Shown here in pieces: positions 30,260 through 57,004 of a DNA stretch of 64,000 nt. The notes beneath the pieces were generated by a model. It saw nothing but the letters and a program-made list of their open reading frames with translations, was not told the origin of the DNA and did no database searches. Every line of letters starts with the position of its first letter. Position 1 is the stretch's first letter. A program made the position numbers and the translations under genes. Origin of the DNA: a virus; IMG/VR virus record IMGVR_UViG_3300049893_002106, positions 1-64,000 of that record; one strand, 5' to 3'.

Positions 30260-31648
30260 CTACCCCTTCATCCCGTTAATTTTAACTTTAATGGCGGCAA
30301 AGGCAGCCGCATTAATGGGAGGCCCAGACGGGCCAACGCCAGTGGGGACTGTTAATTGGGAGATTGCATCTATAGCCTCAATAATTAATGCCAGTAATTC
30401 GCCAGTAGCGCCTTTGATGGCTACTTTACCGCTTTTCATAGTTATGCTGGCTACGGCCTCTTTAATTTCCCATCCGCTTATAGCCGACATAGCACCGCTG
30501 CCCTTAGAGTCTAGTGAATAGTCCCCAGTAACATCGAACGATGCAGCCCCGGTAATTGAAAACGAAGTGTCTCCAGTTACACTAACTGTATAGTTGCCTG
30601 TAATGTCTGAAGTTAAATCACCGGAGACAGTGACAGACATATCGCCAGATACGCTTCCCGTATAGTTACCGGAAATCGTATCTTCTGCATCACCGCCTAT
30701 AGTTACTGTCCTATCCCCATCAATAGATATTTCATGGTCGCCAGTAATAGAGTCGGTTTTACTTCCGCCTACCGTATATTCTTCGTCTCCCTCTATAGAT
30801 ACAGTATTGTCTCCAGTGGCCGATACTTCTATGTCTCCCTCAGAAACTACCGATATTAATTCGGTAGCGCCTATCTCCAGCATTCCTTCACCAGAATCTA
30901 AGAGTAGATATTCTCCGTCACTGGAAGATAGAGAAGCGCCCAAACTCTCAATAGTCTTTTTGCCCGCATTTGTAAGCTTAATTATTCCTTCTGTGCGATC
31001 CATGAGGAACTGCTGTCCATCGTAGTCATATACTGTAAATACCCCATCATCTAAAAATTCCATGATGGTTATACCTTCTTCTGGAGCAGGCTCTACCGCT
31101 GGATTAGATTTGGTAGCATTACTTTCTTTTCCCGTAAGGCTGCCAAGATCTGGAATGGCAAACCCAGAAGCTTTCTTTATAGTTGGCGCTCCACGGTGAA
31201 TAATTTTTAGCTGACCTGTTTCGTCAACAAAAAACTCCATCCCTAGATATATTAATTTAGATTGGGGCTTAAGGCTATCGTGCCCCTTAAAGTGATTAGT
31301 TTCTTTTGGATGGGGAAGATAGCCAATAATCAATGGCCTTCTAATGTCTCCACCTAAAAAACAAACAACAACCCTATCTCCAACATTTGTTTCGTTTTCT
31401 TTCTCATCCGAAGAAAAGTCAATAGTCTCTTCGTCATCTGTCCCTCTAAGTCTGCCTTGGAATTGATCCGCAATGCCGCCAAATATAGAAGCCTGCAAAA
31501 CCTTGCTTACAACAGACCGAGACCCATTTGGGAAAGTAACCAATACATCGTAATATATTGAAGAAGCTCCGCCCTTGCCAGATCCTTTTGAGACCTTCAA
31601 TACTTCACCGTCAAGTAAATATGGCATAGTTATAGATGCAGGTATCAT
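30260..31648 (-). CDS. gp5-like central spike with octad beta-helix
   Basis: 462 residues. Residues 1-115 look like the gp5/VgrG OB-fold (GDRVVVCFLGGD then RRPLIIGYLP). Residues about 271-382 form 14 uninterrupted octads of the type Gly-Asp/Asn-x-x-x-Val/Ile-x-x, the repeat that folds into the triple-stranded beta-helix needle of T4 gp5. No lysozyme domain is visible between them. The trimer should be the membrane-piercing tip of the tail. The start overlaps the hub gene stop as ATGA. Confidence 0.9.
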   Translation of the reverse strand: MIPASITMPYLLDGEVLKVSKGSGKGGASSIYYDVLVTFPNGSRSVVSKVLQASIFGGIADQFQGRLRGTDDEETIDFSSDEKENETNVGDRVVVCFLGGDIRRPLIIGYLPHPKETNHFKGHDSLKPQSKLIYLGMEFFVDETGQLKIIHRGAPTIKKASGFAIPDLGSLTGKESNATKSNPAVEPAPEEGITIMEFLDDGVFTVYDYDGQQFLMDRTEGIIKLTNAGKKTIESLGASLSSSDGEYLLLDSGEGMLEIGATELISVVSEGDIEVSATGDNTVSIEGDEEYTVGGSKTDSITGDHEISIDGDRTVTIGGDAEDTISGNYTGSVSGDMSVTVSGDLTSDITGNYTVSVTGDTSFSITGAASFDVTGDYSLDSKGSGAMSAISGWEIKEAVASITMKSGKVAIKGATGELLALIIEAIDAISQLTVPTGVGPSGPPINAAAFAAIKVKINGMKG

Positions 31649-40423: not shown

Positions 40424-41395
40424 TTAAGCTGCCTTTGCCATACTAATAGCTACTTCTAAAGCATTTGCATTTTGAACTGCACCCTGACCAAACCATGTAC
40501 TGTCCATACGGATAGCGGAGTCTTTGCCCTTGTAATATTGCATATATTCAATAACTGCATTATATGCTGCCCAGTAGGTGCCTTGAATGCCCTGGAGGTT
40601 ATTTCCACGGCCAACTTCAAACAAAGGAATTACCTTTGCAAGAATTTTACTTTCTTGAATCTCACCATCTTCCAATACCTTGTCCTGTAGATTAAATACA
40701 ACCTTGATATATTTCTTAAGATCTGCCTGATTAATCTGCTTAGAAGCAAGCAGACGATATTGTTCTGCATTGGCTTCAAATTCAGCATTGGCCAGGTTCA
40801 TGATTTCACCGAGCTTCTCAAGATTTTCAACTACTTTACCGGAGTGGCGGACTCTGATAAGCTTTGAACTGTTATTGCTAATACTAGCAGATAGGGTATT
40901 TTGGCATACAACCCGGATAGGAACAAATCCTACACGGACTGCCATGGTTCCATCATGGCTATTGGAAAGCAACACATATTTATTTACAATATCATTACCC
41001 TTAATAACTAGAGGATCTCTATTGATTTTAGCCAAAACCCAAATCCTTTGGCCATCACGGAGGCTACCGGCAGTCTCAAGGGTAGCAAGACCAGCTTCAA
41101 GGAAGGGATTGAAAAACTCAAAAGCCTCAATGTTTTGAAGAGGCTTGTAACCTGTCCCAACTACCCCAAGAATACGGCCATCTGATTGGCGGTAAGTGGC
41201 TACAGCAGGAACCACTTGAGCTGTATCTACTGTCACCAGCTTTTTAACTCCAACCGACCAATCAAGGCCAGCAGCTACAATTGCCTCTCGAATACTAGGA
41301 GGATTATCTAGCTTCTGCCCAAGGCCATGCCAAGGAGCATCGCCAACATAAAACATTTGCCCTTGACCATTTTTCATTTCGATTTCGTGTGCCAT
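40424..41395 (-). CDS. DUF932 phage/plasmid-like protein
   Basis: 323 residues from the ATG at 41395 (AAGGGGGCTACC upstream), preferred over an earlier start that would begin inside the sigma-28 leader. The family is a common phage and plasmid protein of unknown function, with signature parts visible here: an early PWHGLG segment, GYKPLQN, SHDGT and a RVVCQNTL core with Arg-His-Ser. A role in DNA modification or defence evasion has been suggested for such proteins, without proof. It is transcribed from sigma-28 type site A and ends at a strong terminator, so it is a single-gene unit. Confidence 0.8.
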   Translation of the reverse strand: MAHEIEMKNGQGQMFYVGDAPWHGLGQKLDNPPSIREAIVAAGLDWSVGVKKLVTVDTAQVVPAVATYRQSDGRILGVVGTGYKPLQNIEAFEFFNPFLEAGLATLETAGSLRDGQRIWVLAKINRDPLVIKGNDIVNKYVLLSNSHDGTMAVRVGFVPIRVVCQNTLSASISNNSSKLIRVRHSGKVVENLEKLGEIMNLANAEFEANAEQYRLLASKQINQADLKKYIKVVFNLQDKVLEDGEIQESKILAKVIPLFEVGRGNNLQGIQGTYWAAYNAVIEYMQYYKGKDSAIRMDSTWFGQGAVQNANALEVAISMAKAA

Positions 41396-41412
41396 GGTAG
41401 CCCCCTTTAATT

Positions 41413-41430
41413 GACGACTTGATTGCCGTC
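41413..41430. repeat. Leader repeat of sigma-28 site A
   Basis: GACGACTTGATTGCCGTC, an 18-base block found identically at 46233-46250, 11 bases downstream of the -10 box. On the minus strand it reads GACGGC to GTCGTC and could fold into a small hairpin. Together with the promoter it forms a duplicated cassette. Confidence 0.8.
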
Positions 41431-41441
41431 TTATATATCCC

Positions 41442-41468
41442 TTATCGGCATTTTTCAAAAAAACTTTA
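41442..41468 (-). promoter_or_regulatory. Perfect sigma-28 (FliA) consensus promoter, site A
   Basis: On the minus strand TAAAGTTT, 11 bases, GCCGATAA: a 16 of 16 match to the enterobacterial FliA consensus with exact spacing. The predicted start is about 39 bases before the DUF932 ATG at 41395. Confidence 0.85.
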
Positions 41469-41498
41469 GCTCTTTTTTAAGAAAAACTTATTTATTTT

Positions 41499-41792
41499 TT
41501 AAGATACTAATTTTACTGGCTCTTTTTCGTCAGGAAAATGATCGGCAATGATGCCCACTATATTGGCCAAGAAATAATTGAGGCTATACTTACTGTCGAA
41601 AGTCATAGCCCCAGACTCTACAGCCATCATCAGGTGATCCTGGTGATAAGAAAGATAGTCCAGTATTTTTGCGCGATTGATAAATACTACAGAACCTTCC
41701 TCCTTTTCCTGCAATACTTCGTCCTTTACCCTCTTAATCAGCAAAATCAAGTCCCTGACCGTCGTTTCTTTTGTTGCATCAATAAAAGTCAT
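41499..41792 (-). CDS. Unknown 97-residue protein
   Basis: The ATG lies inside the end of the NIF3-like gene (14-base overlap) with AAGGAAG upstream. Mixed composition with Asp/Lys/His; the middle contains Asp-Tyr-Leu-Ser-Tyr-His and the end Ile-Ile-Ala-Asp-His-Phe-Pro-Asp. No known motif. Co-transcribed with the NIF3-like gene from sigma-28 site B. It lies just upstream of site A. Confidence 0.65.
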   Translation of the reverse strand: MTFIDATKETTVRDLILLIKRVKDEVLQEKEEGSVVFINRAKILDYLSYHQDHLMMAVESGAMTFDSKYSLNYFLANIVGIIADHFPDEKEPVKLVS

Positions 41793-42510
41793 TTAGTTTC
41801 TTCCTTCCTTTGAATATTTCTGTTCCAAAAACATCAATATCTAACGGTGCAATATCTACTTGAATCCCATGGGGATTTAGTATTTCCTCAAAAAGCTTCC
41901 CACCAATCCTCTCAGATAGAGTGTGGCCTATTTCTATCAAGAAATTAAACCCAGACCCTTCTGGAGAAGCAATATTTTCTCCAATAATATAGCAGTCTAC
42001 TTTACTAGACCGGGCCAAGTTAGTTACCATACCACCTAAGCCAGTGCATATAGCTATAGAAGATACGACCTCTGGAGCAGAAGGGGACTTATAGACATGG
42101 CCCTTAAGTCCACCGGCAAAATCCTTAATCTTATAAACAAGATCTTCAAAAGATATAGGCTCTATTTCCCCATAAGGGCCGAGATTGTCATTAAATCTTT
42201 TGTTTGTGACTAAACCAAGATGGTCTGCCCACATATCATTTAGTCCGCCCTTCACACAATCCAGGGCGGTATGAAATATGAGCTGTGGAACACCAGTAAT
42301 ATATGGATGATGAGATATTAAAAGATCATATCCTTGATCTTTAAAATATTTCACTACCTTAGGTGTAGGGGTTACACAATATAGAACTCTTTTTATTTCC
42401 AATTGAGGAGGGACATGAAAAGCACCATAAGGCTCTCCTTCAGTTCCACTCCAGGTATTTGTCGGTGGAATGCGCTTTAAGCACATCTCAATAACGTCTG
42501 AGGCTTTCAT
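41779..42510 (-). CDS. NIF3/DUF34-like metal-binding protein
   Basis: 243 residues from the ATG at 42510 (GGAGGGCTTAAT), chosen over an earlier in-frame ATG lying in the promoter. It shows the NIF3 layout: DLLISHHPYI in the first half, and in the second half Asp-Cys-Tyr-Ile-Ile-Gly-Glu and a Glu-Ile-Gly-His-x-x-Ser-Glu motif that together hold two metal ions. The family is conserved in cellular life, annotated as GTP cyclohydrolase I type 2-like, but its reaction is unsettled. A phage copy is unusual. Produced from sigma-28 site B with the 97-residue gene downstream. Confidence 0.8.
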   Translation of the reverse strand: MKASDVIEMCLKRIPPTNTWSGTEGEPYGAFHVPPQLEIKRVLYCVTPTPKVVKYFKDQGYDLLISHHPYITGVPQLIFHTALDCVKGGLNDMWADHLGLVTNKRFNDNLGPYGEIEPISFEDLVYKIKDFAGGLKGHVYKSPSAPEVVSSIAICTGLGGMVTNLARSSKVDCYIIGENIASPEGSGFNFLIEIGHTLSERIGGKLFEEILNPHGIQVDIAPLDIDVFGTEIFKGRKKLNDFY

Positions 42511-42533
42511 ATTAAGCCCTCCTTCCATATTCC

Positions 42534-42560
42534 TTATCGGCATATTGAAGAAAAACTTTA
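42534..42560 (-). promoter_or_regulatory. Perfect sigma-28 (FliA) consensus promoter, site B
   Basis: On the minus strand TAAAGTTT (42560-42553), 11 bases, GCCGATAA (42541-42534), 16 of 16 consensus matches. The TAA of the -35 is also the stop codon of the upstream zincin gene. It drives the NIF3-like gene. Confidence 0.85.
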
Positions 42561-43217
42561 GCTCTTTTTTAAATTATTTTTAACAATCTGCTTAATTTTA
42601 TTCCTAAGCTTCAGAGATGCCAGGAAATATTTAAAATATTCACGAGCAGATAGACCGATCTTCATATTTTTATATAAATAAGCTATTCCATCTACCAGAT
42701 ACGCTTGGGCTTCGTCGATAGCTACTGACTCGTGATAGCCAAGCTCCTGTATTTTAGTAAGATATTTACCTAAATTAGGCAAAGAATTGACAATAGAGGT
42801 AGAATATTTCCTATATTCTTCAGAAAGATAAAACGTAGCGTGAGCCATTTCATGAGGTAGCGCGGTCATATATGTTCTGGCTATAGCAATAACATAAAAC
42901 TCTTGCTCCAAGTCTATATTATTAGCTATCATATTAAGAACGTCTTTTTCATCTTCAGATAGAGGATTAAAATCTCCATCAAAAAATTTTTTCAATACAT
43001 AGCCAGGGAAGTTGTAGCCGCCCCAATCGTTATAATAAGTCCACGCCCCATTCTGTTGTTCATACCACTTACGGTATTGGTAAACGGAAAAAACCTCCCC
43101 CTTAAACCGAGGGGACTCATAATGCTCTCCAAATCGAATTAGAGAGCGACACATTTCATTTGGGGTATCGTATACCAATACGACCACTTTTCCGATCATG
43201 CTCATTTTGAAATACAC
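42558..43217 (-). CDS. HExxH zincin, gluzincin-like arrangement
   Basis: 219 residues; the start is uncertain (GTG at 43217 with GGGG upstream, or ATGs at 43205 and 43199). HEMAH at 122-126 lies in a helix (TALPHEMAHATFY) and Glu169 in an Asp-Glu-Ala-Gln helix 43 residues later could be the third ligand. There is no signal peptide or membrane anchor, so a cytoplasmic protease or an inactive zincin fold is suggested. Many aromatics precede the motif. It sits between two small basic-protein genes and sigma-28 site B. The substrate is unknown; the fold assignment rests on the motif alone. Confidence 0.7.
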   Translation of the reverse strand: MYFKMSMIGKVVVLVYDTPNEMCRSLIRFGEHYESPRFKGEVFSVYQYRKWYEQQNGAWTYYNDWGGYNFPGYVLKKFFDGDFNPLSEDEKDVLNMIANNIDLEQEFYVIAIARTYMTALPHEMAHATFYLSEEYRKYSTSIVNSLPNLGKYLTKIQELGYHESVAIDEAQAYLVDGIAYLYKNMKIGLSAREYFKYFLASLKLRNKIKQIVKNNLKKS

Positions 43218-43260
43218 GATAGACCCCGTATTAGCGGCAAATGCCCATATCGGGCATCAA

Positions 43261-43392
43261 TTAGCCGTTTGTGTTAGTAGGAGCGGTTTCTTTAGGTGTG
43301 CGAGCGCGATATTTACCGCGTTTTTGACCCTTATCCGACCGTTGCTTACGAGCTTTCTTGCCTTCTGCCTGTACTGTTGCCGTGTCTGTCAT
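43261..43392 (-). CDS. Small basic protein, 43 residues
   Basis: ATG at 43392 with a strong AAGGAGG six bases upstream, stop at 43261. The product is highly basic: Lys/Arg/Gln-rich from residue 10 to 35 with Thr, Ala and Asn at the ends. Such proteins may bind nucleic acid or ribosomes. A promoter candidate lies at 43418-43446. No family is recognised, but the ribosome site and composition support a real gene. Confidence 0.65.
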   Translation of the reverse strand: MTDTATVQAEGKKARKQRSDKGQKRGKYRARTPKETAPTNTNG

Positions 43393-43417
43393 AAGACCTC
43401 CTTTTTAATCTAAAATA

Positions 43418-43446
43418 ATTATTACATTAATTATTAAACAAGTCAA
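43418..43446 (-). promoter_or_regulatory. Sigma-70 type promoter candidate
   Basis: Minus strand TTGACT (43446-43441), 17 bases, AATAAT (43423-43418), in a very AT-rich gap before the 43-residue gene. The first box abuts the stop of the gene upstream. Confidence 0.45.
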
Positions 43447-43447
43447 G

Positions 43448-43606
43448 TTATTTTCTTTCAATAACCGGACTGGCCACCTTTTTTTTGCTTTCATAAGATC
43501 GCGGAGCCGAAGAGTCCTCTTGAGACTTAAGAGCCTCAATAGCCTTTAGATCTTTTTTGATTTTAGCTTCCATTTTTTTATACCAAGAAAATTTACGCGA
43601 AACCAT
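43448..43606 (-). CDS. Small basic helical protein, 52 residues
   Basis: ATG at 43606 after AAGGAGGGCATAAA, stop at 43448. Begins MVSRKFSWYKKM, then a Lys/Glu-rich helix, and ends in a Lys-rich tail. Basic like its neighbour at 43261-43392, but without sequence similarity. Unknown; probably a DNA- or protein-binding accessory protein. Confidence 0.65.
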   Translation of the reverse strand: MVSRKFSWYKKMEAKIKKDLKAIEALKSQEDSSAPRSYESKKKVASPVIERK

Positions 43607-43618
43607 TTTATGCCCTCC

Positions 43619-44158
43619 TTAAAAATCCTTAATTAATCTATCGTAAATATCTGAATCAATCAAGAAGTCTTTTTGATCAAGAGAAGTTTTTACTCGTTTC
43701 CCATACTTTAGAATCTCTTCGCTTACCTTCTCTGCCTCTTTAATCCACGGCCTATCCTCTGGCGGGAGTAAAGTTGAATAAAATTCCTCTTTTGAGTCTT
43801 TAGAATCTTTCCAGTGCCAGCCTATCTTTCCTCCCGGTGAAGACTTTCTAAGTCGATGGCTCAAGTATTGTTCTATATAGGTAAGGCTCTTTGCAATATG
43901 GGAGGTAAGCTCTTCATCGCTCAAGTCATCGAACAGTGTAACTATAAATCTCCTATCCGAAAAAGATACAAAAGAATTTCTATTACCTGGCTTTCCAAAT
44001 GGAGTTTTTTTAATTACGAACTGTACACGATTCTTCTTTAGAGAAGATGAAATTATCTGAGGCCATAAAGCATAGACTTTTTTTCTAACAATCTTTTTAA
44101 AGGATTCATCTGGCGAACTAAATCCAAGCCTATTCCATATATAAATCATGTCTATCAT
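43619..44158 (-). CDS. Unknown 179-residue protein
   Basis: Starts two bases after the stop of the IrrE-like gene, with AGGG eight bases before the first of two close ATGs. Basic, with a Trp-rich segment (Ile-Trp-Asn-Arg and Ile-Gly-Trp-His-Trp). No membrane or metal motif. Co-transcribed with the IrrE-like zincin from sigma-28 site C, so it may be its partner or substrate. Family not recognised. Confidence 0.7.
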   Translation of the reverse strand: MIDMIYIWNRLGFSSPDESFKKIVRKKVYALWPQIISSSLKKNRVQFVIKKTPFGKPGNRNSFVSFSDRRFIVTLFDDLSDEELTSHIAKSLTYIEQYLSHRLRKSSPGGKIGWHWKDSKDSKEEFYSTLLPPEDRPWIKEAEKVSEEILKYGKRVKTSLDQKDFLIDSDIYDRLIKDF

Positions 44159-44159
44159 A

Positions 44160-44606
44160 TTATTTACCCTTTCGTATCTTCCTGTCGAGAGACAGCTTAA
44201 CTTTAGCGATTGGATATTTACGGTGAACTAAAGTAGAATATATTCCCTCATCTTTGATTATTTTTTTAGCATAATTATCGCAATCAATCTCTGCCTTGTG
44301 CCCTATAGACAGCCTTTTTTGATATTTCGCTTCGTAGACAGAGAAGTAGTATTCTTTAAATTCACCAGTAATATAGTGCATTAAGTGGCAAAGCTCGTGG
44401 GCAAGCACGAAACACTTATCTCCTTTAGTTACCCTTTTACCGTTCGGCTTCTTGGCCGTATTAATCACGATCTCTTGCCCAAAAAAAGCAATATATCCAT
44501 ATATATGTAAGCCCTCATCTTTTTCAATTGGCCTAAAATAAACCTTAAAACCAAACCCTTTGGCTAGTTTTGTCAGTCTTTTTAGTAAATGATCAGCTTT
44601 TGACAT
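44160..44606 (-). CDS. ImmA/IrrE-type (M78-like) metallopeptidase
   Basis: 148 residues from the ATG at 44606 (GAGGGAGTCAAT), preferred over an earlier ATG that overlaps the promoter. HELCH at 70-74 is followed by a downstream Glu/Asp cluster in AEIDCDNYA (about 105-113), the layout of ImmA/IrrE peptidases that cleave phage or stress repressors. ImmA proteins control lysis-lysogeny repressors; here no repressor is seen nearby, so a host regulator may be the target. Driven by sigma-28 site C and followed by the 179-residue gene. One of four zincins in the block. Confidence 0.75.
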   Translation of the reverse strand: MSKADHLLKRLTKLAKGFGFKVYFRPIEKDEGLHIYGYIAFFGQEIVINTAKKPNGKRVTKGDKCFVLAHELCHLMHYITGEFKEYYFSVYEAKYQKRLSIGHKAEIDCDNYAKKIIKDEGIYSTLVHRKYPIAKVKLSLDRKIRKGK

Positions 44607-44631
44607 ATTGACTCCCTCATCATCCATATCC

Positions 44632-44658
44632 TTGTCGGCATTTTCTAAGAAAACTTTA
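44632..44658 (-). promoter_or_regulatory. Near-perfect sigma-28 (FliA) promoter, site C
   Basis: On the minus strand TAAAGTTT (44658-44651), 11 bases, GCCGACAA (44639-44632): 15 of 16 consensus matches with exact spacing. It lies 25 bases before the IrrE-like ATG at 44606. Confidence 0.8.
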
Positions 44659-44675
44659 GCCCTTTTTTTAAAAAA

Positions 44676-45071
44676 TCAATTAAGAGGCTGATTCTTATGG
44701 CCATTTAAGGCTCTAACGGCAGCAGTTATCTCTTCCCAGTCCTCTTCGTCCTCTACTAAAGCCGACAGAGAGATATTACTCTTAATTAATTCGAGCCTAG
44801 TTCTAGCAACTAATTGCCTCAGGCAAGTGCGAAACTCTTCTGCCTGTCTCTTATTTGCAGAGGCCATATTGGTTGCGCTAATAAGATTAGACCTGAGTCT
44901 GTCCATTTTGATTTTTTCGGAGATCAACAGATGTCTCAGCTCATTAGTATCGGAATTGGCTTCTCCTATCCGCTTAAGATAGGAAACGTGAAGTCGATGT
45001 ATTTCCAACTCTAACTCCCTTAAACGGAGCCAAGGAAGGAAAATAAGTTTTAATTTACTTAAAACCTTCAC
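44676..45071 (-). CDS. Coiled-coil unknown protein
   Basis: 131 residues from a GTG at 45071, preceded by AGGAG spanning the preceding stop; an alternative start 36 bases earlier would overlap that gene by 28 bases. After a short hydrophobic segment (LIFLPWLRL) the sequence is a heptad-like helix of Leu, Glu, Arg and Lys for most of its length, then an acidic patch with Asp-Glu-Asp-Trp-Glu-Glu. Possibly a membrane-tethered coiled coil of spanin or scaffold type; evidence is structural only. Third gene of a coupled set. Confidence 0.65.
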   Translation of the reverse strand: MKVLSKLKLIFLPWLRLRELELEIHRLHVSYLKRIGEANSDTNELRHLLISEKIKMDRLRSNLISATNMASANKRQAEEFRTCLRQLVARTRLELIKSNISLSALVEDEEDWEEITAAVRALNGHKNQPLN

Positions 45072-45079
45072 CAATACTC

Positions 45080-45619
45080 CTAGCTCAATAGTTGCGTTAC
45101 AAACCACACTCCATTGATTTGGAAAGGACTTCCATTGCTGACGTTAGAAGAGATTCTCTTGAGCTGCTCACGCTCATTAAGCGGCAAGTCATTGAGGAGG
45201 GTATTGAACTTCTCCTCTTCCTCTACTGGAACCAGAAGGGAAATGGGTGCGGAAAGAGACTTTTCCTTGAACTGTTTAGCCGCCTTAATAGCAATATCTT
45301 CATTAGACAGTGCCGCATATTCCCTAGAATCCTTAATCATAGACAGGGCATTTAGCACTTCTTCTGGAGTGGGACTGCGCCAAACCTTAACCCTAACAGT
45401 AGGGTCCGATAAGGACTCCTCAAGCTCAAAGGTAGTGCCATTATGGTGCGCCCTTGCCTGTAAGAGCTTCTTGTTTTCTTCTGTTTTCTTTCGATCTATT
45501 TCATATCCAGTTTCAATTTTGGATGTTTCCATGATCTTCTTCCACCGAGAAGAAGTGCCAAATAGCTCCAAAGAAAGAACATCTAACTTATCGCGTAAGG
45601 CGCGTGAAACTCCAGACAT
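45080..45619 (-). CDS. Unknown 179-residue soluble protein
   Basis: Helical Lys/Glu-rich N-terminal half, an acidic linker, then a mixed C-terminal domain with Pro-Ile-Ser-Leu-Leu-Val-Pro and a final Trp-Phe-Val-Thr strand. No signal peptide, metal site or known motif. It lies between the coiled-coil gene and the 130-residue gene with short gaps. Function unknown. Confidence 0.65.
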   Translation of the reverse strand: MSGVSRALRDKLDVLSLELFGTSSRWKKIMETSKIETGYEIDRKKTEENKKLLQARAHHNGTTFELEESLSDPTVRVKVWRSPTPEEVLNALSMIKDSREYAALSNEDIAIKAAKQFKEKSLSAPISLLVPVEEEEKFNTLLNDLPLNEREQLKRISSNVSNGSPFQINGVWFVTQLLS

Positions 45620-45627
45620 ATTAACTC

Positions 45628-46020
45628 CTAATTTGGCGAGTCCTTTTGAGATTCCAAGAATCTCTCTTCTTTTTCAGAGAGAGCCAAAGAAGGCTCCCTT
45701 CTTGAGAGAGTATATTCTGCGGCCTCCATACCAGTCAAGTAAAAACCGGAGTCGGTTATCTCAAAATATTCAGCCAAAGATACAGAATAATTCTGCATTA
45801 TTGCCGCAGAAACCATGGCTGCCGTATTAGGCAGAAGCGAAGATCGAAGCGATAAGAACATCCTATCTAGCTCAGGACTATAAGTAAGCTTAGCTAGAAG
45901 CATATCTTGCGCTTCGTCTTTTATAATCGCCTTATTCTGTCCAGACGGGACAAGGGACTTGCCGGAAATCTTCTTTACCGCCAATCCCAGTGCTGTCCAG
46001 TCAGGCTTATTAGGCTCCAT
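45628..46020 (-). CDS. Unknown 130-residue protein
   Basis: Starts inside the end of the small membrane-protein gene (11-base overlap) and is therefore co-transcribed with it from sigma-28 site D. Soluble, Leu/Ser/Ala-rich, helical, with a Tyr-Ser-Pro-Glu-Leu-Asp segment and an acidic C-terminus. No known family. Confidence 0.65.
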   Translation of the reverse strand: MEPNKPDWTALGLAVKKISGKSLVPSGQNKAIIKDEAQDMLLAKLTYSPELDRMFLSLRSSLLPNTAAMVSAAIMQNYSVSLAEYFEITDSGFYLTGMEAAEYTLSRREPSLALSEKEERFLESQKDSPN

Positions 46021-46219
46021 GTCCTAGCCTTTTCTTAAAAACTTTCAACAAAACAAGAGACAGAGCCAGTTCCACTCCAAGGCCAATTGTTACACCAAGA
46101 AACGGATCAATAAAAAATAGATGACTGAGACCATAAAACAAAGTAAATGATAGGAATTTATCCAGGGTGTGAGCTGCTGCTAAGGTGTGGGCATTTTTTG
46201 CATCAAAGTTAATTTTCAT
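46010..46219 (-). CDS. Small two-helix membrane protein of sigma-28 unit D
   Basis: 69 residues from the ATG at 46219 after AAGGAGGACTT. Hydrophobic segments at about 22-40 and 42-60 are separated by a short Asp-Pro turn and followed by a basic Lys-Lys-Arg end. It shows no similarity to the small membrane protein at 355-603 beyond topology. It is the first gene after a perfect sigma-28 promoter, so it may act at the cell envelope of motile hosts. Function unknown. Confidence 0.7.
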   Translation of the reverse strand: MKINFDAKNAHTLAAAHTLDKFLSFTLFYGLSHLFFIDPFLGVTIGLGVELALSLVLLKVFKKRLGHGA

Positions 46220-46232
46220 AAGTCCTCCTTGA

Positions 46233-46250
46233 GACGACTTGATTGCCGTC
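46233..46250. repeat. Leader repeat of sigma-28 site D
   Basis: An 18-base block identical to 41413-41430, located 10 bases after the -10 box. The promoter core of sites A and D is also identical over 29 bases. Confidence 0.8.
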
Positions 46251-46260
46251 CATGAATCTC

Positions 46261-46287
46261 TTATCGGCATTTTTCAAAAAAACTTTA
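46261..46287 (-). promoter_or_regulatory. Perfect sigma-28 (FliA) consensus promoter, site D
   Basis: On the minus strand TAAAGTTT (46287-46280), 11 bases, GCCGATAA (46268-46261), 16 of 16 consensus matches. Its first TAA is the stop codon of the upstream lipoprotein zincin. It drives 46010-46219 and probably the genes after it. Confidence 0.85.
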
Positions 46288-46815
46288 GGGGTCTCCGTCA
46301 TTTTTTATATAAGTCATTAATTCCTCTTGCAAATCTACCCAATTTTCTCGGCAATATTCTTCCGACATCATATAGGGATACATAATATGCCCTTCTTTCT
46401 CGGAATGAGCTTGATCAAAAAGACAATGAGTTAGCTCATGATATATTAAAGCCCTAAATTTACAAGGATATTCTTCCTGGATATTTTCTACTTCTATATA
46501 AGAAAAAGACAAGGCATTAGATCCATTGGGCATTTTTTGCCAATATCTATAGCAAACACCAATAACATCGTCATTAAAAGAATTAAACCTTATAGATCGC
46601 AAAGCATAGTCATCTCCATGTCCCAAGCCATTTTGATCTATAACAGCTAAATACTCTCTATAGTAATACTTTATCTTAGGATCTATAAACTTATTTGTAG
46701 TTACAAACGGAAGGTCTTGTTCAGGTAAAAACCTGTCTACAATTGGCGGCCTCTCTTGAGGAGCCATTTGCCCGCAAGAAACTACAAACAAGCATATCAA
46801 GAGCGCCCTAATCAT
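46285..46815 (-). CDS. Lipoprotein HExxH zincin, metzincin-like
   Basis: 176 residues from the ATG at 46815, which overlaps the previous stop as ATGA. The signal ends Val-Val-Ser-Cys, so Cys14 would be lipidated and the enzyme held in the envelope. HELTH at 126-130 is followed by His137 (HExxHx6H) and Met145 in Gly-His-Ile-Met-Tyr-Pro, a Met-turn-like element. The spacing and surrounding residues match the membrane-anchored protein at 39360-39815, so the two are paralogues. A predicted active periplasmic or outer-membrane protease; the substrate is unknown. Confidence 0.8.
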   Translation of the reverse strand: MIRALLICLFVVSCGQMAPQERPPIVDRFLPEQDLPFVTTNKFIDPKIKYYYREYLAVIDQNGLGHGDDYALRSIRFNSFNDDVIGVCYRYWQKMPNGSNALSFSYIEVENIQEEYPCKFRALIYHELTHCLFDQAHSEKEGHIMYPYMMSEEYCRENWVDLQEELMTYIKNDGDP

Positions 46816-48152
46816 TTGCAAATTACTCCTGAGCTAAAGGCCGATAGATTAGCAAATATTTCTAGCGGAACCGAAGCAGAGTAGCATATCTCCCCTGTAG
46901 ATGAAATTATCAAGTTAGTAGGGACAGAGCCATAAGAGGTTTGCCTTACTTTTGTATCTTGGCCATCAGATGATTTCCAAATAACTTGCAGTCCTCTTCC
47001 AACTATCTTACTCGCCACCCCAATAGAGCCACCGATAGATCCAGAAGATGTGGCACTTCTATTAAGTGAGACAGTAAAAGAATCTACGGTGGAGCTGATT
47101 ACTCTTTTTTCACCATAAAGATCCCCGCGAGTTATGCCTCTACCAGAGGATAACATTTCGAGTATTACAAGATCCCCAGCCACTACTCCAAGGGAGGCTC
47201 TGTGAGTTCCACTTCCAGCCGATACATAAACTACTGAAGAGCCGCCTTTAGTGAGAGAAACCTGGAACGTGTCATTTGTGGCACTTTTAATATAATAAAC
47301 CGTATTAATATTGAGACCGGAAGGGAGTGTTCCTGTGGAGCCAAACATTACCGGATCATTATTAGCAAAGCCATGGGAAGCGGAATTAATTAATAATCCC
47401 GAACCGCTGTTCGTTGCCGTAAAAGATATTGAAGATTTATTTACCGTAATGAGATTACTACCGGCAGAGGTGGTTATTGGATTACTGGGCAGCGAAATAT
47501 ATGTAGACTCACCGGACACATAGGCCAAGATTTGAGAATGGTCTGCCTTGCGCAGCAAGCTCTCGAACAGCGGGCCGCCATAAGATGATCCTTCGCCTAC
47601 TAGCACTTCTTGCACAGTTCCGCTCAATGTCCCTGAAATAGAAGATGTCAATATAACTAGATTATCTACTACACTCTGTAAAGTAGAGATGCTTGAAGCG
47701 GCTGTATTAATCTGGGATTGAAGACTAGAGATAGTGGAAGAAATATTTGCAATCTGTGCTTCGATGGAAGGCACGTTGCCATTTTTTAAATCAGCAATAT
47801 CTTCTTCGAGAGCTTCAAGTTGATTATTAAGTGCATCGCTAAATGCGGCAAGCTGTGTTTTGAGTTCCACTCTAGCCTCTACGGTTGAAGCCTGAGCAAC
47901 ATTACACATCTTCTGGATAAGGGGGTCTTGAACATTAACCCCAGAGCAAGAAGCAAAGTCGCTATAAATTAGCGCTTCTATGGAACTAGAAATATTACGC
48001 AAGGAAGCCATTTGACTTTCTAGGTCTTGAAGCTTTTGCTCCTGAGTTGGCTTATGAGTGCAGCCATCAAAACAATCGACTGGACTCCCTGGCTCTGGAT
48101 CACTACACGAAAACGCTAGAGGGAAAAGAAGCAATAAATATGTAAGCTTCAT
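46812..48152 (-). CDS. Lipoprotein with coiled coil and beta C-terminus
   Basis: 446 residues. The signal LLLLFPLAFSC gives a lipidated Cys16, followed by a Cys-rich short region (Cys27, Cys31). A coiled coil spans about 35-165, where Leu, Ile, Ser and Gln repeat in heptads, followed by Thr/Ser/Gly-rich beta segments. It has no known family signature. AAAGGACTAATAA precedes the ATG. A long, lipid-anchored, fibre-like protein may occlude receptors or span the periplasm. It is coupled to the lipoprotein zincin downstream. Confidence 0.75.
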   Translation of the reverse strand: MKLTYLLLLFPLAFSCSDPEPGSPVDCFDGCTHKPTQEQKLQDLESQMASLRNISSSIEALIYSDFASCSGVNVQDPLIQKMCNVAQASTVEARVELKTQLAAFSDALNNQLEALEEDIADLKNGNVPSIEAQIANISSTISSLQSQINTAASSISTLQSVVDNLVILTSSISGTLSGTVQEVLVGEGSSYGGPLFESLLRKADHSQILAYVSGESTYISLPSNPITTSAGSNLITVNKSSISFTATNSGSGLLINSASHGFANNDPVMFGSTGTLPSGLNINTVYYIKSATNDTFQVSLTKGGSSVVYVSAGSGTHRASLGVVAGDLVILEMLSSGRGITRGDLYGEKRVISSTVDSFTVSLNRSATSSGSIGGSIGVASKIVGRGLQVIWKSSDGQDTKVRQTSYGSVPTNLIISSTGEICYSASVPLEIFANLSAFSSGVICK

Positions 48153-55231: not shown

Positions 55232-57004
55232 TCAAGGAGCGGGTATATTTTCAATTTTCGGTCTAACGTATTTTATTTGTCCGTAATCCCAAAACTTTTT
55301 AAGACCTATATCATAGCCACTATTTCCAAGATATTTTCTTCTGTTCCAGTGGAAATATCCGTCAGTCCATTCAAACCCAATATGTTCACTTGTTTTGATA
55401 AATCCCATAGCTAAAAGGTGTTTTCCACTTCCATGTCTCCTGTCAACAAAGTTAATTATATCTTTGTCTTTTGGCAATAGCTTTAAAAGCTTAGAATATC
55501 CACCAGTTACAGAATGGCCTACCAGAGAGGCAAACCTGCTTATATGGATAACACCGCTCTCTTCATAAAACCTTATGGCGCATACCAGTTTTCCATTGCT
55601 ATATAGTCCAAAAGTCTTACCCTTGCCTCTTCCCCTTAGATGATTATTGTCAAAAAAGGCATTAGATTCAGTATTGTCCACTTCTTTAATTTCACACTTT
55701 CTTGCTCTTACTATTTTAGACTTACCAAGCTTATTATTAATCATAGAATCAACAATTTCCCTCTTTTCCTTGACCTCAAATTCAGAGAATGCGAGGAGGT
55801 TGTAGCCAAGATTGTTAAAGGCTTCCCATTTTTTAAAATGATAATCTTTGCTTTTCTTTTCTTCTGAGTGGTATCTCATGCCATCTGTTTCTATTATTAA
55901 TTTTCTCTCTTCCAGTCTAATATCTGGTCTATAATTAACCCCACTTAGAGCCTTGTTATATATAGCACCTTCTATCTGGATTAATTGTTCAAAAGACTTG
56001 GTAGATATGGCAGTTTCCATAACGCCTATGCCATTTTTTATATTTCTGTAATATCTTAAATTTGGAACTCCCATCGCCTTGCATGCCTTATTTAAGGAAA
56101 TTCCACTATCTAACAAATTCTTAATACCAACTCCAATGTCTATATTTTTCATTCTTCTTACGATAGAGGAGCTTAATGCGCTTTTCCATTTTTGAGTCCA
56201 AGACTGACCTCTATAAGTCAGCCTAGCTTTGCCGTTTTCCAGCTCTTCGATTTCAAGACCTATTGTTTTTAATTTTTCTAAAAACTTTAAATGGTTAGGG
56301 TTGTCATTATTAATTTTAGGTCTAGCTATAGCCCCGTCTATCATGAACCTTCTGATTCTTATACTTCGAGAAACTCCGTCCTCCCATGATACTTGTATAA
56401 CATTGGACGGGCTGCTTAGATCTCCGCTATATGATGAGATGCCAGAGTCTTTGATAACTTTTAAAATATCGGCTTCAAAATACTTCTTAGCGTATTTAAT
56501 GGAATTTTCCCTAGCTCTTTGTTTATGTTCCGGTGATTGCGCTGCTGCCCTGACTCTATCCAGCCAGAGTCCGCCTTCTTTTCGTTTGGCGTATTTCTTT
56601 TTAAGACACTGTGGGCATTGATACGCATGTCCATACCTTTGAAGTGATTTTTGGGCATCTGTCCATGCCGGTGAACCTACAGTGTCACATCCATGGCATT
56701 TTATAGATACATGCTCATGAGCCTTAATAGACCTGGAGGTTGTATCAATAAGGTTGTGGGCTTTAAGTATCTGCTCATCATAGATGACGGCTTTTGCATC
56801 TCCGATTTTTTTCTTGAGACATTCAGGACACTGATACGCCCACCCTTTCTCTTTAAATGAGCGATTGGCCTGATCCCATTTAACTCCACGGCTATTGCTG
56901 CAACTGTGGCACTTAAACACCACTAATTCTTTTTGCTCAATTTGCCTTGTATTTATATCTATAGCCATCATAGTTTCGAGAAGTTCTCTTGATCTAGTTG
57001 GCAT
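55232..57004 (-). CDS. Composite homing-endonuclease-like protein
   Basis: 590 residues. Two tandem Cys4 zinc-finger modules (about 30-66 and 78-136, each Cys-x-x-Cys ... Cys-x-x-Cys) are followed by a helical DNA-binding region with an HTH-like stretch (about 295-330). A nuclease-like segment has VNYRPDIRLEERKLIIETDG, resembling EDxHD/Vsr-type cores, and a C-terminal region (about 440-570) has the acyltransferase-like phage fold with RFASLVGHSVTGGYSKLLK and DRRHGSGKHLL. It probably binds and cuts capsid-flanking DNA to spread. It has its own promoter (57032-57060) just past the capsid terminator. Confidence 0.75.
   Translation of the reverse strand: MPTRSRELLETMMAIDINTRQIEQKELVVFKCHSCSNSRGVKWDQANRSFKEKGWAYQCPECLKKKIGDAKAVIYDEQILKAHNLIDTTSRSIKAHEHVSIKCHGCDTVGSPAWTDAQKSLQRYGHAYQCPQCLKKKYAKRKEGGLWLDRVRAAAQSPEHKQRARENSIKYAKKYFEADILKVIKDSGISSYSGDLSSPSNVIQVSWEDGVSRSIRIRRFMIDGAIARPKINNDNPNHLKFLEKLKTIGLEIEELENGKARLTYRGQSWTQKWKSALSSSIVRRMKNIDIGVGIKNLLDSGISLNKACKAMGVPNLRYYRNIKNGIGVMETAISTKSFEQLIQIEGAIYNKALSGVNYRPDIRLEERKLIIETDGMRYHSEEKKSKDYHFKKWEAFNNLGYNLLAFSEFEVKEKREIVDSMINNKLGKSKIVRARKCEIKEVDNTESNAFFDNNHLRGRGKGKTFGLYSNGKLVCAIRFYEESGVIHISRFASLVGHSVTGGYSKLLKLLPKDKDIINFVDRRHGSGKHLLAMGFIKTSEHIGFEWTDGYFHWNRRKYLGNSGYDIGLKKFWDYGQIKYVRPKIENIPAP

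Follow-up and report, generated by a model that had tools for sequence, protein, structure and literature searches.

Gene Content of the Accessory Block

The stretch of DNA analyzed here (the window; 64,000 nucleotides) comprises positions 1 to 64,000 of IMG/VR record IMGVR_UViG_3300049893_002106, a linear record of 70,624 bases that is probably an incomplete fragment. The record encodes a myovirus-like tail, a baseplate, a head maturation protease and a major capsid protein, as well as a class II-type ribonucleotide reductase located outside the window, and it seems to derive from an intact tailed phage. Between the tail and head genes lies an accessory block on the minus strand (approximately 40.4–46.3 kb). 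Four sites resembling promoters of the flagellar sigma factor sigma-28 (FliA), designated A to D, head the four gene groups of this block and are found nowhere else in the 70.6-kb record.

All genes of the block discussed here are on the minus strand. The first gene after D (46010..46219) encodes a 69-aa protein with two hydrophobic stretches that has no family match and is holin-like by eye only. It is followed by genes for proteins of 130 aa (45628..46020), 179 aa (45080..45619) and 143 aa (44676..45107, charged and coiled-coil-like), none of which belongs to a recognized family. The first gene after C encodes a zincin-like metallopeptidase (44160..44606; HELCHLMHY) with weak similarity to Peptidase_M91/M78, and is followed by genes for a 179-aa protein without a family above threshold (43619..44158) and a second zincin-like protein (42558..43202; HEMAHATFYL). 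Site B precedes the gene of a DUF34/NIF3-family protein (41779..42510, longer reading 41779-42543; PF01784, 2e-27) and that of a 97-aa protein without a family (41499..41792), and site A that of a DUF932 (phage/plasmid-like) protein (40424..41395, longer reading 40424-41458; PF06067, 2e-52; phrog_1221). The preliminary description had placed zincins, a NIF3-like and a DUF932 protein under the control of the sites. This holds for the genes that follow A, B and C, but a third zincin (46285-46815) is encoded on the upstream side of D and is outside its control.

Lipoproteins are predicted at 46285-46815 and 46812-48152 (lipoboxes VVSC and AFSC), one of which is a zincin (HELTHCLFDQAH). A homing endonuclease gene (55232-57004) adjoins the capsid gene, and its best matches among isolates are from Campylobacter phages.

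Sequence and Position of the Four Sites

Sites A (41442..41468), B (42534..42560), C (44632..44658) and D (46261..46287) are all on the minus strand. A pattern search agreed at all four with the match reported earlier, TAAAGTTT-N11-GCCGATAA at 16/16 positions for A, B and D and at 15/16 for C (GCCGACAA), with exact spacing. The -35 element (core TAAAG) is complete at every site (8/8 bases), the -10 element is complete at A, B and D (8/8) and has 7/8 bases at C, and the spacer is exactly 11 nt throughout. When the search was extended over the whole record, A–D were the only matches with at most one mismatch; allowing up to three added only positions 30800 and 60413, with three mismatches each.

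Downstream of each site we identified an ATG preceded by a Shine-Dalgarno (SD) sequence. Between the last base of the -10 element and this ATG we measured 46 nt at A, 23 nt at B, 25 nt at C and 41 nt at D, a range of 23–46 nt rather than the 25–42 of the preliminary description. The stop codon of the upstream gene supplies the TAA of the -35 element at both B and D; at B, this gene is that of the second zincin-like protein. A pyrimidine-purine step, as would be expected at a transcription start, occurs exactly 8 nt past the -10 element at A, B and D, and at D this C/A step is the likely start. Site C has no such step at +8 and has one at +7.

The -35 element, the 11-nt spacer and the -10 element are identical to those of E. 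coli class 3 flagellar promoters such as that of tar, which matches the pattern at 16/16 positions, so that the pattern is genuine and experimentally anchored. In contrast to the E. coli promoters, the sites in the window precede phage accessory genes instead of flagellar or chemotaxis genes, and they have an A/T-rich spacer (T...AAAAT), a C before the -35 element and a G after the -10 element.

Comparison With Chance Expectation

Three perfect 16-base matches are not expected in 70 kb. The number of sites observed was reached by 0/100 dinucleotide shuffles. We further scored the record with a weight matrix derived from 25 E. coli FliA sites determined by ChIP-seq (PMC4203485 Table 2). The four sites have the highest scores of the whole 70.6-kb record (D and A 21.2, B 19.9 and C 18.2 bits), above the maxima of all 20 random sequences of the same length (10.9–17.6 bits) and within the range of E. 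coli's own FliA sites (8 to 29 bits). That the matches are due to chance, or that the sites are inactive relics, is very improbable: perfect 16/16 matches lie intergenically, close to gene starts and on the same strand, followed by a leader and an SD sequence, and the shuffles, the matrix scores and the reversed-pattern and site-free phage controls given below all argue against it.

Relatedness of the Sites and Leader Hairpins

Sites A and D have the same 27-bp sequence and an 18-nt leader hairpin in common, and A and B share the upstream sequence AAAAAAGAGC, which includes an A-tract and GAGC. In view of these shared flanks the four sites do not represent independent events but partly duplicated cassettes, as if one promoter cassette had been spreading through the genome.

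The hairpin, GACGGC-AATCAA-GTCGTC, is found directly after the predicted starts of D (46233..46250, minus strand; z -4.9) and A (41413..41430, minus strand; the same 18 nt), and is absent elsewhere in the window. Among 65 leaders a general rule for such leader hairpins was weak (mean z -0.4), and we therefore consider the hairpin particular to A and D.

Occurrence of FliA-Type Sites in Other Viruses

The bare consensus is found in at least 119 stretches in IMG/VR, compared to 31 for the same pattern reversed, every one of which is single. Among the matches listed, an SD sequence, a start codon and an open reading frame follow within 90 nt for 80/121 distinct sites (6/27 in the control), and a pyrimidine-purine step is located 8 nt past the -10 element at 76/119 distinct perfect sites (8/25 in the control) and at 67/89 of the gene-preceding sites. 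This bias is what a transcription start would be predicted to leave. The sites listed also show a flank bias: a C before TAAAG (74%), a T after TAAAGTTT (73%), a T before GCCGATAA (62%) and a G after GCCGATAA (59%), with a further bias to T then purine at 33/34.

Within 48 other site-bearing records, many hold 2–10 sites with at most one mismatch, the highest number being ten in one 30-kb record, and the reversed control gave 0. As these records were picked for the presence of at least one site, the extra sites alone count as evidence. A further 47 phage records, 12 of them from isolates, contained no sites.

Several kinds of genes follow perfect or one-mismatch sites in other phages. In an unrelated phage (L066), a perfect site stands directly before a DUF932 gene, the product of which is 32% identical to that of the window; other sites precede zincin-like genes (L102, L109) and genes for rIIA-like GHKL ATPases (L049, L059, L075, L108, L111), and in L059 and L075 the rIIB-like neighbor carries a FliA-type site of its own. 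The closest relative of the window DUF932 (L002, 57% identity) was searched and is without such sites. As the more distant DUF932 gene has a site and the closest has none, the promoter is not simply inherited with the gene, and the predicted association of promoter and gene would have arisen or been kept in separate lineages. No viral contigs related by the major capsid protein or by a 693-aa protein were found.

Several arrangements in these records stand out. In L061 (458-5037, plus strand), ten consecutive FliA-type sites, four perfect and six with one mismatch, often with GCCGATAT, are located within 5 kb, each followed by a separate small gene, so that this phage module is almost wholly on FliA-type promoters. 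Six prophage-like records of approximately 50% GC (L044, L064, L098, L133, L147, L150) contain the same perfect site with identical flanks and without a close gene start. In L063, L104, L113, L115 and L142 (records G021, G034, G040, G042), TTGAC(A) occurs in the 11-nt spacer with a TATAGT-like sequence approximately 17 nt later, and in this phage group a sigma-70 promoter is apparently nested in the putative FliA promoter. G021, G040 and G042 also give weak sigma-region-2 matches.

These data bear on the possibility that the sites are a phage-specific repeat, either a regulator-binding site or ordinary sigma-70 promoters, with an accidental likeness to FliA promoters. The 27 bp and hairpin common to A and D and the upstream flanks common to A and B could be expected of such a repeat, and TTGACA in the spacer of some other phages suggests an overlapping sigma-70 promoter. 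However, no TTGACA is present in the spacers of A–D, and a sigma-70 promoter scan of the region gave no excess (40 vs 33 +/- 6). Moreover, the IMG/VR sites listed vary in the spacer, constancy being confined to the -35 and -10 elements, where it is set by construction of the scan, and the reversed pattern is several-fold less frequent and shows no clustering. We therefore regard a phage-specific repeat as quite improbable. Based on their sequence, position, start signature and recurrence, the identification of A–D as sigma-28 promoters is strongly supported.

Probable Reading of the Promoters by Host FliA

The preliminary description had left the choice between the sigma factor of the host and a copy carried by the phage. 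No Sigma70_r2 or Sigma70_r4 domain was found in the 70.6-kb record, which is probably incomplete, so that an own copy is not borne out there. A Sigma70_r2 match is also absent from 43/48 other site-bearing records, including records of 78–122 kb, whereas a match resembling sigma region 2 is present in 5/48 and exceeds the curated cut-off in two of these. As no sigma domain was found in this record and no Sigma70_r2 match in the 43 others, host FliA is the simplest and likeliest reader.

A sigma-28-like factor of the phage, or a factor of another type with the same specificity, could be encoded where the genome has not been sequenced, or be too divergent for Pfam. The record is linear and its capsid resembles those of 144–170 kb phages, so that genes are probably missing, and the matches in the five records point in the same direction. 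Against this stand the 43 records without a match, and the recurrence of the exact host consensus across many unrelated phages; independent sigma factors of phages would hardly be expected to preserve it. On balance we consider a phage factor unlikely, and it is probable that A–D serve as promoters for the FliA (sigma-28) RNA polymerase of the infected host itself.

Indications for the Host

Comparison of the capsid, ribonucleotide reductase, homing endonuclease and NIF3 proteins to those of isolates gave only distant matches or none. A longer exact form of the window motif had no viral matches, and was present in two cellular genomes among those scanned (one Fibrimonadales, one Oligoflexales). 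In the phylum of the latter, the Bdellovibrionota, perfect sites were found in 19/58 genomes, concentrated in a few; as in the window, these have a T-rich AAAAT spacer, a C before and a G after, and many precede lipoprotein genes. The phage of the window encodes two lipoproteins with SC lipoboxes. The similarity of the promoters, together with these lipoproteins, makes a Bdellovibrionota-like host a lead only. No DUF932 relative was found in the 58 Bdellovibrionota genomes, and the spacer bias of the window type may also occur in phyla outside this comparison.

In a subset of the Bdellovibrionota genomes (L189-L203), the perfect FliA sites are mostly located before lipoprotein genes, which suggests that the FliA regulon of these genomes is broad and non-flagellar. 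Another record (G010) has nine sites, and its capsid protein shares 55% identity with that of Myxococcus phage Mx1, in which no FliA-type sites were found. The host of Mx1 is not known to be flagellated, and the contrast between the two phages is suggestive.

Proposed Mechanism and Relation to Known Systems

FliA is mainly present in swimming (motile or dispersal-phase) cells, and infection of such a cell would therefore lead to immediate transcription of the block. We propose that the FliA holoenzyme of the host starts four overlapping or consecutive transcripts at A–D, which would cover the block in relay: from D the protein with two transmembrane segments and three small genes, from C the zincin operon, from B the NIF3 gene and a small gene, and from A the DUF932 gene. 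The phage would contribute DNA signals only, and no phage regulator would be needed; the A and D leaders may be protected by their 5′ hairpin. As a consequence, the block would be expressed in cells swimming at the time of infection. Initiation at the sites, its FliA dependence, its timing and purpose, and the host, in which we assume FliA to be present, are what we infer here. The coupling to motility and the use of FliA as an "early switch," both raised in the preliminary description, are likewise conditional on this mechanism.

The promoter type itself is entirely known. Phages with early promoters of the sigma-70 type, for which a host sigma factor is used, are known. Like these phages, the phage of the window would use the unmodified host polymerase, but the housekeeping sigma factor would be replaced by an alternative, lifestyle-restricted one. 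FliA control of a gene located on DNA of phage origin, as predicted here, has a precedent in E. coli, where flxA of the cryptic prophage Qin is FliA-dependent (280 to 2 in a delta-fliA mutant; PMC4203485 Table 2). In contrast to the present case, with several operons in an apparently intact tailed phage, flxA is one gene of a defective prophage, with the promoter TAAAGATT...GCCGATAG. FliA as a global, non-flagellar regulator has a parallel in Bdellovibrio bacteriovorus, where it is the main attack-phase regulator and TTAAG-N16-CCGATA is found in 92/140 promoters (PMC3627812); promoters with a FliA motif were on the whole stronger in a later reporter study (PMC12622784). That regulon is cellular, whereas the one predicted here would belong to a phage.

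In the mainly open-licence literature searched, we found no description of a multi-operon phage FliA regulon. The claim of the preliminary description that no such phage regulon had been described consequently stands for a multi-gene regulon but has to be qualified for the single FliA-dependent prophage gene flxA, and tapping of the flagellar sigma factor by phages on such a scale is apparently undescribed.

Implications for Phage Gene Expression

Sigma-70-type promoters, and after them switches made by the phage, are the usual explanation for the timing of phage gene expression. As a tentative and rather speculative generalization, capture of sigma-28 may be a recurrent viral strategy, in which early or accessory genes are placed under host FliA and are expressed in motile, non-growing cells with low housekeeping transcription; the hosts would have a FliA-run swimming stage, and could include Bdellovibrio-like attack-phase predators. 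If true, phage expression would be tied to whether the cell is swimming, and phages targeting motile stages would carry a simple sequence signature, CTAAAGTTTT-N10-GCCGATAAG with a start 8 nt downstream, which is searchable in any phage collection.
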